From the NCBI GenBank assembly GCA_005883305.1, contig VBAC01000001.1:1302001-1366000 (forward strand): a stretch of DNA of 64,000 nt, given 5' to 3'. Shown here piece after piece: positions 11,401-26,377 of the stretch. Under the pieces are notes generated by a model that was given only the letters and a program-made list of their open reading frames with translations, had not been told where the DNA came from and searched no databases. The stretch comes from Alphaproteobacteria bacterium (GTDB lineage: Bacteria; Pseudomonadota; Alphaproteobacteria; Sphingomonadales; Sphingomonadaceae). The translations under genes were made by a program, and so were the position numbers. Position 1 is the stretch's first letter, and every line of letters begins with the position of its first letter.

Positions 11401-11744
11401 CGCCCCTGCATGTTGTGGAAGCCGCCCGGGATGTGGACGGTGAGCGCGTCCAGCGCTTCCGTCAGCCAGATCTGGCAGGCGAGGCGCGAGCGGCGGGTGA
11501 CGTGGGCGGCGAGATCGAGCATGTCCTCCTCCTCCTCGCCGGCGGGCGGGAGCTTGGCGAAATCCTCGGCGGCGACGATCACGTGGCAGGTCGAGCAGGC
11601 CATCTGCCCCTCGCACGTGCCTTCGAGCGGCTGGCCGGCATTCTGGGCGATGTCGAGCAGGCGCGCGCCTGGCGGCGCGAGTACCTCCTGGATCTCGTTG
11701 CCGTCGGCCGAGACGAAGCGGACGCTGACCATTTTTGGGGTCAT
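11397..11744 (-). CDS. ISC-type 2Fe-2S ferredoxin
   Basis: A 115-aa ferredoxin with cysteine ligands in the pattern C-x5-C-x2-C (CEGQMACSTC, residues 44-53) and a fourth Cys at residue 90 (RLACQIW). This is the arrangement of adrenodoxin/ISC ferredoxins that supply electrons for Fe-S assembly. Its ATG overlaps the upstream cysteine desulfurase stop (ATGA), so it is coupled to the sulfur donor gene. Together with two desulfurases it forms a small Fe-S/sulfur-transfer operon. Confidence 0.92.
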   Translation of the reverse strand: MTPKMVSVRFVSADGNEIQEVLAPPGARLLDIAQNAGQPLEGTCEGQMACSTCHVIVAAEDFAKLPPAGEEEEDMLDLAAHVTRRSRLACQIWLTEALDALTVHIPGGFHNMQGR

Positions 11745-12961
11745 GCGGCGAAGCCGGGCTGGCGATCGGCGGCTTCGTTGATGAGGGCCAAAGCGGAGCG
11801 CAATTCCTCCTCGCTCGTATAGCGGCCGAAGCCGAGGCGGATCGAGGAGCGGGCCTCGCGCTCGGTGAGGCCGAGCGCGGCGAGGACTTGGCTCGGCCGG
11901 CCCGAGCCGCTGGCGCAGGCCGAGCCGGCGGAAAAGGCCACTCCACGCACCTCCGAGATCAGCCGGGCTGCGTCGATGCCGTCGCGGCGGAGGTTGAGAT
12001 TGCCGTGGTAGCGCCGGGTCTCCGAGCCGTTGAGGGTCCAGTCGGACAGCATCTCGCGGGCGATCGTCCACAAAAGCTGGACATCGTCCTCCCCGAGCAA
12101 GGCCGCGGCGGCGCCGAAGCCGGCGCAGAGCGCGGGCGAGAGCGTTCCGGAGCGGACGCCGCCCTCCTGCCCGCCGCCGTGCATGAACGGCTCGAGCGCC
12201 ACGCCGTCGCCGACCCAGAGCGCGCCGATCCCCTTGGGGCCGTGGATCTTGTGGGACGACAAGGCGACCATGTCGCAGGCCTCGATCGGGAGCGGGACTC
12301 GGCCGAAGCCCTGGACGGCGTCGCAGAAGAACAGAGCGCCGGCCGAATGGGCGATTCGGGCGATCTCCGCGACCGGCTGGATCACGCCGATCTCGTTGTT
12401 GACGAGCATCGCGGCGACCAGGCCGGTGCCGGGGGTGATGCGCTCTTCGACCAGGTTGAGGTCGACGAGGCCGTCGCGGCCGACCGGGAGGATCTCGATT
12501 TCAATGCCCTGCCCGGCCAGCCATTCGGCGCTGTCGAGCACGCAGGCATGTTCGGTGGCGAGGGTAACGATGCGTTTCGCGCCGCTGCTCTTGAGCGCCC
12601 AGTTCGCCGCTTCGGTGGCGCCGGAGGTGAAGTGCAAAGACCCGTTCGTCCCGAGCCCTTCGACGCCGCCTGCGGCGTCGCTCTGGGTAAACTCCGTCGA
12701 GGGACCCCGCCGAGCGGAGCCGAGGCTCTGTTTCTCGGCTTCGCTCGAATGGGTGTCTCGACTTCGCTCGACACGAACGGATGGATTGGTCAGCGCCTCT
12801 ACGACCTGCTCCCGCGCCACCTCCACCGCAGCAGCCGCCTCACGCCCCAATTTGTGCGGGCTGTGCGGGTTGGCGAATTTCTCTTCGAGCCAGGGGCGCA
12901 TCGCCGCGAGGGCCTCCGGGGCCATCGGCGTCGTCGCCTGGTAATCGAGGTAGATCGTCAC
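11741..12961 (-). CDS. Cysteine desulfurase carrying an in-frame palindromic insertion
   Basis: PLP enzyme (NifS/IscS family) moving sulfur from cysteine to a protein persulfide. The 406-aa product has the PLP-lysine in SSHKIHGPKG (K238) and the catalytic cysteine in FSAGSACASG (C349). Between the helix ending VVEALTN (about residue 59) and the strand LHFTSGATEAAN (residue 109), relatives have only a short linker. Here about 46 extra residues, rich in Arg/Ser/Glu, are encoded by a CGTTCGT-bounded repeat. The frame is preserved. The start is GTG, overlapping the upstream stop (GTGA). Whether the insertion is tolerated is unknown. Confidence 0.88.
   Translation of the reverse strand: MTIYLDYQATTPMAPEALAAMRPWLEEKFANPHSPHKLGREAAAAVEVAREQVVEALTNPSVRVERSRDTHSSEAEKQSLGSARRGPSTEFTQSDAAGGVEGLGTNGSLHFTSGATEAANWALKSSGAKRIVTLATEHACVLDSAEWLAGQGIEIEILPVGRDGLVDLNLVEERITPGTGLVAAMLVNNEIGVIQPVAEIARIAHSAGALFFCDAVQGFGRVPLPIEACDMVALSSHKIHGPKGIGALWVGDGVALEPFMHGGGQEGGVRSGTLSPALCAGFGAAAALLGEDDVQLLWTIAREMLSDWTLNGSETRRYHGNLNLRRDGIDAARLISEVRGVAFSAGSACASGSGRPSQVLAALGLTEREARSSIRLGFGRYTSEEELRSALALINEAADRQPGFAA
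12643..12780. repeat. Palindromic element (CGTTCGT/ACGAACG ends) inside a coding region
   Basis: About 138 bases bounded by CGTTCGT and ACGAACG. An inner hairpin is built from AGCCGAGG…CTCGGCTTCG, and GTCGAGGGAC and GTGTCTCGACTTCGC flank it. A shorter copy at 26246-26347 shares these blocks and lies inside another gene. This copy has an extra segment with GACGCCGCCTGCGGCGTC. It adds about 46 codons to the desulfurase without a stop. Confidence 0.85.
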
Positions 12962-14022
12962 GCCGCCCGGCGGCGCTCGTAGAGCTTGCGCCATTCGGCG
13001 AGCAGCGCGTCGATGTCCGCCTCGCAGGTCCGCGGGCCGAAGCTCACCCGGATCACCTCGCGCGCCCGCTCCTCCGCCATGCCCATGGCGAGGAGGACGT
13101 GGCTGGTCTTGAGGCTGCCCGACGAGCAGGCGCTGCCGGCCGAGACGGCGATTCCGGCGAGATCGAGCTGCATCATCTGCGCGGCGGCGGGGACGCCCGG
13201 CATGCGATAGGCGCCGATCGTGGCGATGCGCGGGGCGGCCTCGGCAACGATCTCGCCGCCGGAATCGCGGATCGCCGCGTCGAGCCGGGCGCGCAGGCGC
13301 TTCGCTTCCTCGTACCAGCCGTGATCGGCCTCGATGGCGGCGGCGAAGCCCATGATCATCGGAACCGCCGCCGTGCCCGGGCGGACGCCGCCCTCTTGCC
13401 CGCCGACTGCTTCGAGCGTCGCGGGATCGCGGATCAGCAGCGCGCCGATCCCCGGCGGGCCGCCGAGCTTGTGCGCGGCGACGACCGCGAAATCGGCTTG
13501 CGGGACTGGGAGCTTGCCGGCGCTCTGCGCGCAATCGACGAGCAGCAGCCCGCCCGCCCCCTTCACCCGCGCGGCGATGTCGGCGATCGGGTGGATCACG
13601 CCGGTCTCGTTGTTGACCGACTGGACGGCGACCAAGGGGCGATCGGCGCCCGCGAGGGCCGCATCGAGATCGGCGAGGTCGAGCGTGCCGTCGGCGCGCG
13701 CCGCGATCTGGCGCGCGTCGGGGACGGTGCGCAGGATCGCCGGATGCTCGATCGACGAGACGATCCGCGGCCCCGCCTTGGCGCGGCGAAGCGGGATCTC
13801 CAGCGCCTCGGTGGCGCCGCCGGTGAAGACCAGGGTGCCTTCGAAGCCCAGAGCGGCGGCGATGCGCGCGCGCGCATCCTCCATCGCGGCGCGGACCGCG
13901 CGTCCCTCGGCATGGGCCGAGGACGGATTGGCCCAGCTATCGCAGGCGGCGCGGATCGCCTCGGCCGCGTCGGCAAGGATCGGCGTGGTCGAGGCGTGAT
14001 CGAGATAGATGCGCGTGGCCAC
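12958..14022 (-). CDS. Cysteine desulfurase, first of a tandem pair
   Basis: A 354-aa aminotransferase class V protein with PLP-lysine K185 in AAHKLGGPPG and catalytic cysteine C299 in VSAGSACSSG. It starts MATRIYLDHASTTP, a typical NifS-family N-terminus. It is only moderately similar to the downstream paralogue, so the pair is not a recent duplication. The order desulfurase-desulfurase-ferredoxin, each overlapping the next, suggests coordinated sulfur transfer for Fe-S clusters or tRNA thiolation. No scaffold gene (iscU/sufU) is adjacent. Confidence 0.93.
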   Translation of the reverse strand: MATRIYLDHASTTPILADAAEAIRAACDSWANPSSAHAEGRAVRAAMEDARARIAAALGFEGTLVFTGGATEALEIPLRRAKAGPRIVSSIEHPAILRTVPDARQIAARADGTLDLADLDAALAGADRPLVAVQSVNNETGVIHPIADIAARVKGAGGLLLVDCAQSAGKLPVPQADFAVVAAHKLGGPPGIGALLIRDPATLEAVGGQEGGVRPGTAAVPMIMGFAAAIEADHGWYEEAKRLRARLDAAIRDSGGEIVAEAAPRIATIGAYRMPGVPAAAQMMQLDLAGIAVSAGSACSSGSLKTSHVLLAMGMAEERAREVIRVSFGPRTCEADIDALLAEWRKLYERRRAA

Positions 14023-24764: not shown

Positions 24765-25400
24765 TCAGGAAACGTAGCGGGCAGTCGTCTTCGCGGCCAC
24801 TTCCTCAGCCGCAACGTCGGGGGCCAGCTCAATGAGCTTGAACGGGCTCTGGTGATCGGGCCGCTGGAACACGGCCAGATCGGTGACGATCATGTCGACC
24901 ACGTTCTTGCCGGTCAGCGGCAGCGTGCAGGCGGGGATGAACTTGGGATCGCCGTTCTTGGACGTGTGCTCCATCACGACGATGATCTTCTTGACGCCGG
25001 CGACCAAGTCCATCGCGCCGCCCATGCCCTTGATCATCTTGCCGGGGATCATCCAGTTGGCGATGTCGCCATTCTCGGCCACCTCCATCGCTCCGAGCAC
25101 GGTGAGATCGATATGGCCGCCGCGGATCATCGCGAAGCTGTCCGAGCTGGAGAAATAGCTCGACGAGGGCAGCTCGCTGATCGTCTGCTTGCCGGCGTTG
25201 ATCAGGTCGGGGTCTACCTCGTCGTCATAAGGGAACGGGCCGATGCCGAGCATCCCGTTCTCGCTCTGCAGAGTCACCTCCATGCCCGGCGGGATGTTGT
25301 TGGCGACGAGCGTCGGGATGCCGATGCCGAGATTGACGTAATAGCCGTCGCGCAGCTCCTTCGCGGCGCGGGCGGCCATCTGGTTGCGGTCCCAGGGCAT
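24765..25400 (-). CDS. scoB: 3-oxoacid CoA-transferase subunit B
   Basis: Transfers CoA between succinyl-CoA and acetoacetate-type acids in ketone-body or leucine catabolism. The 211-aa beta subunit contains the catalytic glutamate in QSENGMLG (E47) and [12 protein letters not shown] near the N-terminus. [14 protein letters not shown] and the long conserved [13 protein letters not shown] segment follow. Its ATG overlaps the stop of the acid phosphatase gene (TGATG). The usual partner scoA lies upstream, but a phosphatase gene intervenes. Confidence 0.95.
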
Positions 25401-26377
25401 CAGTTGTTTCCTCGTTCGGGGGCGGGCCAGCGGCGATCCGCGGGGAAGACGTCGTCGATTCCGCCGCGAAGGCCCGAGCCGTAGACGGGGTTCGGGAGGA
25501 TGAACCAGCCGTTACCCCAGAGCCAGGCGAACGGCTCCGTGATCGCGGCGCGGCGGCGCTCCGGGACGGGCAGGTCGCGCGCGTTGAACAGGTCGGAGAA
25601 GTCGCCGAGCTGGTCGCCGGCCATGGCGATCACGCAATAACGCTCGGAGATCGCCGTGCGGCGCGGGTCCTTGGCCGAGCCCGCCGCCACGTCGCCCTGA
25701 AGCCAGAGCGTCCGGCCATGCTCCACGGGGCCGAGGCCGGCGCCGTCTATCGTGGCGGTATTCTGGGCGGCGAAGCGCGACAGGCGGTTGGAGTTGAAGA
25801 TCACCGTGACGCGGGCGCGGCGGATGGCGTTGAGGGCGCTCACCGCCCCGGGTGTGGGAAGCACGGCGTTCGCGCCGGTCTCCTCCCAGCGGTTCCAGCG
25901 CTCCTGGTCGTAGGTCCGGCCGGGATGGATGGCGTCGTCATATTCGTAGCCGAGATTCTGAAGCGCCGTCTCGTCCACGTCGAGCACGACCGCGAGCGGC
26001 CGCCGCCCGCAAGGCAGGAAGCGCGGCGCGGCAAGCGTCGATCCCGGGGCGAGCACCACGCTCTGGCGCGGACGGTGCCGGGCGGCCGCCACGACGTAAT
26101 TGCGGAACGCGTGATAGGCCTGAATCCCGCTCGCCCCGCCCTCGCCCGAGCCGTAGAGCCATTGCATGCCGGCCGGCGGCGTGGCGGGACGCGGAGTCTG
26201 GGCGGAAGCGGCGGCGGCGAAAAGAGCCACACCAAGTCCCAAAACCGTTCGTCCCAAGCGAAGTCGAGGGACCCCGCCGACCGAAGCCGAGGCCCTTGAT
26301 CTCGGCTTCGCTCGATAGGGTGTCTCGACTTCGCTCGACACGAACGGATCTCGTGAAACCTTGGCCCGCCCCCTCAT
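25400..26377 (-). CDS. HAD-family acid phosphatase (P4/class B-like) with repeat in its N-terminus
   Basis: A 325-aa exported phosphatase of the lipoprotein e(P4)/acid phosphatase family. The nucleophile motif is [11 protein letters not shown] (D133, D135) and the second HAD motif lies at VIFNSNRLS. The ATG overlaps the scoA stop (ATGA). Residues about 9-42 come from the CGTTCGT-bounded repeat and precede the hydrophobic signal segment [16 protein letters not shown], giving an abnormal n-region of about 43 residues. An in-frame TTG just after the repeat could start a normal signal peptide. A mature lipidated cysteine is not seen. Confidence 0.82.
26246..26347. repeat. Palindromic element, second copy, inside acid phosphatase gene
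   Basis: About 102 bases with ends CGTTCGT and ACGAACG and an inner hairpin AAGCCGAGG…TCTCGGCTTCG. It shares these blocks with 12643-12780 but lacks that copy's extra internal segment. The two lengths differ by 36 bases, a multiple of three. It is read in a different frame here ([10 protein letters not shown]) from that used in the desulfurase ([10 protein letters not shown]). Confidence 0.85.

Follow-up and report, generated by a model that had tools for sequence, protein, structure and literature searches.

Palindromic repeats of unrelated families lie in frame at the same protein loops in free-living Sphingomonadaceae

Protein-coding palindromes have been viewed as peculiar to Rickettsia and Wolbachia and linked to the relaxed selection that acts on small populations living inside cells. 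The closest described systems fall into a few groups. The Rickettsia palindromic elements (RPE-1 and others) are multicopy palindromes residing in frame within unrelated conserved genes, with their inserts modelled as solvent-exposed (Ogata 2000, 2002, in the accounts summarised in PMC2229807, PMC10969869 and PMC3767692). Different element groups were found there at near-identical sites of orthologues, without a decision between a hotspot and a single origin (PMC3767692). The CGTC-tagged REPs of alphaproteobacteria occur mostly as head-to-head dimers and have no dedicated transposase; intragenic REPs were reported in free-living bacteria including Erythrobacter litoralis and Sphingopyxis alaskensis, and RecB of two Xanthomonas was hit at about the same site (Di Nocera 2013, PMC3733652). 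Small non-autonomous hairpins fused in frame to genes are likewise known among those MITEs of bacteria that contain open frames (ERIC/RU-1, RU-2, RU-3 and Correia), for which PMC2229807 and PMC2759123 do not describe the reuse of one loop by unrelated elements.

The window analysed here, a stretch of 64,000 nucleotides from a sphingomonad genome, contains a palindromic repeat in a long and a short form, together with the following features:

11741–12961, minus strand: NifS/IscS-type cysteine desulfurase (csd), 406 aa, GTG start, insert at about residues 59–106
12642–12780, no strand assigned: palindromic repeat, long form, 139 nt, in frame within csd, with the ends CCGTTCG...CGAACGG
12657–12695, no strand assigned: extra 39-nt segment in one arm of the long form, delineated by comparing long and short copies
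12958–14022, minus strand: tandem NifS-like paralogue upstream of csd, without insert, overlapping the csd start
25400–26377, minus strand: P4-type acid phosphatase (PF03767; TIGR01533 below its cut-off), with the repeat in the signal-peptide n-region
26245–26347, no strand assigned: palindromic repeat, short form, 103 nt with 47-nt arms, in another reading frame

The original prediction had described an element of about 138 bases at 12643–12780; the palindromic repeat is real, but it starts one base earlier, at 12642. The short form of the repeat measures about 103 nt and the long form 139–153 nt, with arms of about 47 nt built around the core CGAGCGAAGTCGAG; where a copy is intact, its two arms differ in type, GT/AC versus CC/GG. 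The 39-nt segment stands where the short form has GAA and forms its own 9-bp hairpin (CGACGCCGC/GCGGCGTCG, 12661–12680), and the long form as present in csd is common to at least four other genome copies. The csd copy folds as a long hairpin, with DNA z-scores of −5.3 (plus strand) and −4.8 (minus strand), and the hairpin of the short copy is stronger (−8.1 and −9.4). The genome search proposed at the outset yielded about 28 loci in the 3.03-Mb genome, copy counts being those of sequence searches. On average 4.7 of the six frames of the repeat are open, compared to 4.0 for dinucleotide shuffles and 3.2 for palindrome-preserving shuffles. As this excess is only modest, strong coding optimisation of the repeat was rejected; its GC-rich composition explains most of the open frames.

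The likeness to the Rickettsia RPEs is one of behaviour. In both systems a palindrome of 100–150 nt occurs in many copies, with in-frame copies in unrelated conserved genes (here at seven of about 28 loci, the phosphatase copy being N-terminal), and the insert lies in a surface or disordered region with the fold undisturbed, as predicted here from the Csd model. In contrast, the host here is GC-rich and free-living, and we observed unrelated repeat families along with uninserted sister species, whereas the Rickettsia orthologues all carried an insert. With uninserted sister species in free-living bacteria, the question of hotspot versus ancestry therefore becomes testable. The comparison with RPEs made by the original prediction was thus apt for the behaviour, but the novelty it saw in a free-living alphaproteobacterium had been pre-empted by the in-frame palindromes reported in 2013 (PMC3733652); the new part is the reuse of the same loops by unrelated palindrome families.

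The element shares with the CGTC REPs that it is an alphaproteobacterial palindrome with intragenic copies. The latter are, however, defined by an unpaired CGTC/TGTC/CCTC tag, an AT-starting stem of 8–9 bp, a loop of 4–5 nt and a CCA tail (PMC3733652), whereas the window element, 103–139 nt long with CCGTTCG ends, lacks the CGTC tag, the AT-starting stem and the CCA tail in a consensus of 48 ends read by eye, and its assignment to the CGTC REPs was rejected. CGTC-like dimers nonetheless occur in relatives, within loops of Csd (G008) and of MtaB (G009, G011, G019 and G024). Terminal inverted repeats (CCGTTCG/CGAACGG), sharp at both ends, are a feature shared with MITEs. The ERIC/RU-1, RU-2, RU-3 and Correia elements differ in mostly having target duplications or TA ends, neither of which was seen in the window repeat; no target-site duplication was apparent in its flanks, and no very near relative offered an empty site for comparison at the nucleotide level. 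Like the GTAG REPs mobilised by RAYTs, the repeat is dispersed in the genome, and the one RAYT of this genome adjoins a palindrome of its own. This only RAYT-type gene (locus L056) is flanked at 1190–1290 and 1886–1912 by ggggacagttact(a/g)gtaac(t/c)gtcccc palindromes, which differ from the window repeat and belong to the same broad type as the palindrome that G011 carries in its csd loop. Testing the family PF01797 revealed no transposase tied to the repeat, and in contrast to the GTAG REPs no such protein was detected in several of the genomes richest in the window repeat (G019, G006, G062, G189, G208 and G279). A resident RAYT is therefore not required, and its role as a necessary mover in cis was rejected. 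A literature search for named sphingomonad repeats gave nothing specific.

Within csd, the frame running from the GTG at 12961 to the stop codon ending at 11741 is open across the whole element, which contributes about 46 stop-free residues. This agrees with the expectation that about 46 residues are added in frame to a PLP enzyme between two core elements, as the spacing from LDYQ to TSGATE is 108 residues in this Csd and 61–66 in most homologues. The AlphaFold model has a mean pLDDT of 85.6, where insert residues 64–102 fall below 50 and are placed between a helix (37–58) and a strand (107–112), and outside the insert it matches IscS/Nfs1 structures. The residues invariant across Csd homologues are retained, among them the Lys, His and Cys motifs of the active site. 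The insert is predicted to be a disordered loop between intact core elements and, given the intact modelled fold and the kept active-site motifs, the csd gene looks functional with a disordered passenger loop. The tandem pair of the NifS-like paralogue and csd is kept in most relatives.

Assessing the coding frames with a codon model trained on the window, seven of the about 28 loci overlap a coding frame, comprising csd, the N-terminal phosphatase copy and five further internal ones; the remaining assessed copies appear intergenic. For these five, the coding frame passes stop-free through the repeat inside conserved genes, encoding two E2 acyltransferases (in the linker between the lipoyl and E3-binding domains), hydantoinase A, the tRNA methylthiotransferase MtaB and a biotin-carboxylase/acyl-CoA carboxylase. 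With at least five further in-frame copies in conserved genes, the absence of the element from other coding regions, which had been put forward as a counter-argument, does not hold. The same element had also been anticipated in another frame in a second gene, and it is indeed present in the phosphatase gene, where it separates the ATG from the signal peptide's hydrophobic core. Because of this N-terminal position its translation, although likely, hinges on the start codon. Additional repeat-like stretches were observed in some hosts: a SucB-type E2 (L037, region G000:C1:684957) has the CGTTCGT repeat in its first linker and a repeat-like fragment, GDPSTTLGTG, in the second; in hydantoinase A (L034, region G000:C1:1625598) another stretch resembling a repeat, SSPERGGGPRAERV...PPPRSGED, lies towards the C-terminal part; and MtaB of this genome (L039, region G000:C1:1403219) has a second, CGTC-like repeat, RHSRESGNPASF, near its C-terminus.

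For the comparison with relatives, we searched the family and 26 genomes of the genus; near relatives with a name go under Sphingosinicella. Among 120 distinct Csd proteins the LDYQ–TSGATE distance was 61–66 in most and 72–108 in 12. Thus, most homologues lack the segment, which speaks against a normal loop carried by all of them. Eleven of the 12 long linkers are palindromic repeats by fold or sequence, where the whole-insert z-scores of G062 and G008 are weak, but their ends are recognisable or two separate hairpins are present; a non-palindromic insert of 30 aa in G017/UBA2369 was left out of this count. The 11 palindromic inserts are all located at reference residues ~52–58, after the helix that ends in AL and ahead of the strand running to TSGATE. 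They fall into four sequence families, spread over 11 species from three genera:

CGTTCGT type: G000, G004, G006, G019, G062 (Sphingobium boeckii), G189 (Sphingomonas sp. ID1715), G208 and G279
CGTC-like REP dimer: G008
GGGGACATGTAC...TGTCCCC dimer: G011
AGTGACTGTCACT palindrome: G012

The CGTTCGT type uses at least two reading frames in Csd. Within the three genera it is mostly the species richest in genomic copies that carry it (stratified permutation, P = 5e-5), and phylogenetically independent pairs relating csd insert to copy number gave 6:0 at a threshold of 40 copies, which was picked after the data were seen. Some repeat-rich genomes have no csd insert. The csd insert of G239 (L129), left out of the 11 and of the tree described below, did enter the copy-number test, with G239 scored as a carrier; it is of the same kind and includes an N as well as a frame jump, probably the product of an assembly fault at the hairpin. 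The csd of G003 appears broken. Elsewhere in Csd, we observed one other clear insertion of at least 12 residues, the second-site insert LSPPLPEREGPGVG of Sphingomonas sp. PAMC 26605 (L213), a repeat-like peptide.

A comparable pattern was obtained for three other sites, picked since this genome has inserts there, the repeats of the other species being independent of this choice. At one loop of MtaB, 10 of 26 species have repeat-like inserts of at least two families, not counting the non-palindromic inserts of G002 and G003. Inserts at one loop of the carboxylase are present in 4 of 25 species, each of different sequence. At the N-terminus of the acid phosphatase, 3 of 11 species carry a palindrome, of the CGTTCGT type in this genome and of other types in G024 and G008 (z −10.7 and −8.7).

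We consider it probable that non-autonomous palindromic repeats insert widely, that selection retains the in-frame copies in permissive loops, and that the same loops are thereby filled independently. The element would be such a repeat, REP- or MITE-like, and repeats of this kind would insert at many places in the genome. Purifying selection would purge most genic copies and keep the in-frame, stop-free ones in surface loops or linkers, and because few loops would qualify, the Csd helix–strand linker, the MtaB loop, the carboxylase loop and the signal-peptide n-region would be filled independently by different palindrome families in different species. The encoded peptide would be a tolerated, disordered passenger.

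Alternatively, the loops could be hotspots by mechanism and not by selection, with the insertion machinery recognising a DNA feature of the loops. In several uninserted MtaB genes the site reads TCGTTC, a match to CGTTCG at the end of the repeat, and the flanks beyond the repeat ends show a weak non-G bias (CCC–AAA) and nothing more. However, no such end match is found in the Csd and carboxylase linkers, the same loops are occupied by unrelated families whose ends differ, and the left boundary of the Csd inserts differs by several codons between species, rendering targeted insertion unlikely.

A single old insertion in the ancestor of the carriers, followed by many losses and divergence or exchange, as proposed for Rickettsia RPE-4/6/7, would account for all palindromic csd carriers residing in one part of the Csd tree (a 31-row fork), for the identical left boundary base and frame of three lineages (G006, G189 and G279), and for the scar-like appearance of some insert-free MtaB loops (G015, TCGTTCGTCCCG). 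We nevertheless regard it as rather improbable. On a careful Csd tree built without the linker columns, the palindrome label changes at least nine times, six of them forced by strongly supported branches, and a topology uniting the carriers in one clade is rejected (p-AU 0.0001 when only the CGTTCGT type is considered, 0.004 with every carrier included). The sister species G019 and G008 harbour different palindromes in csd, whereas uninserted sisters show an ordinary linker of 5–7 residues; G208 carries a csd palindrome and its sister G254 has no insert. Neither G254 nor G148 contains any core motif in its genome. The inserts moreover stem from unrelated families in different frames, and the same pattern recurs at four different loops. 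Together, the uninserted sisters and the unrelated families therefore favour repeated and independent use of the same loops. As the carriers cluster in one part of the family tree, some older csd insertions with loss or exchange are likely among the set.

That the insert provides the enzyme with a selected function, such as regulation or partner binding, is very unlikely: inserts do persist in conserved enzymes, which is no direct support, but the site is occupied by unrelated peptides in different frames, the insert is predicted to be disordered and most relatives lack it. An ordinary lineage-specific loop that is palindromic by chance would fit the variation of the native linker length by a few residues, but is virtually untenable and already refuted by the same DNA occurring about 28 times in the genome, mostly between genes, and by the strong hairpin z-scores.

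Independent filling of permissive loops thus remains our preferred reading, in which the selective filter, a neutral role of the peptide and the very mobility of the repeats are what we infer from these patterns. The reuse of loops by unrelated palindromes is the more surprising feature and is invisible from the window alone. There is a small chance that several unrelated palindrome families enter a small set of loops across Sphingomonadaceae in frame via a shared site-favouring insertion process; if so, the length evolution of these protein loops would be driven by mobile DNA. Coding palindromes are found here in conserved metabolic enzymes of free-living bacteria with uninserted sisters available, and they represent natural experiments on which loops tolerate 20–50 extra residues and a route from repeat DNA to protein.
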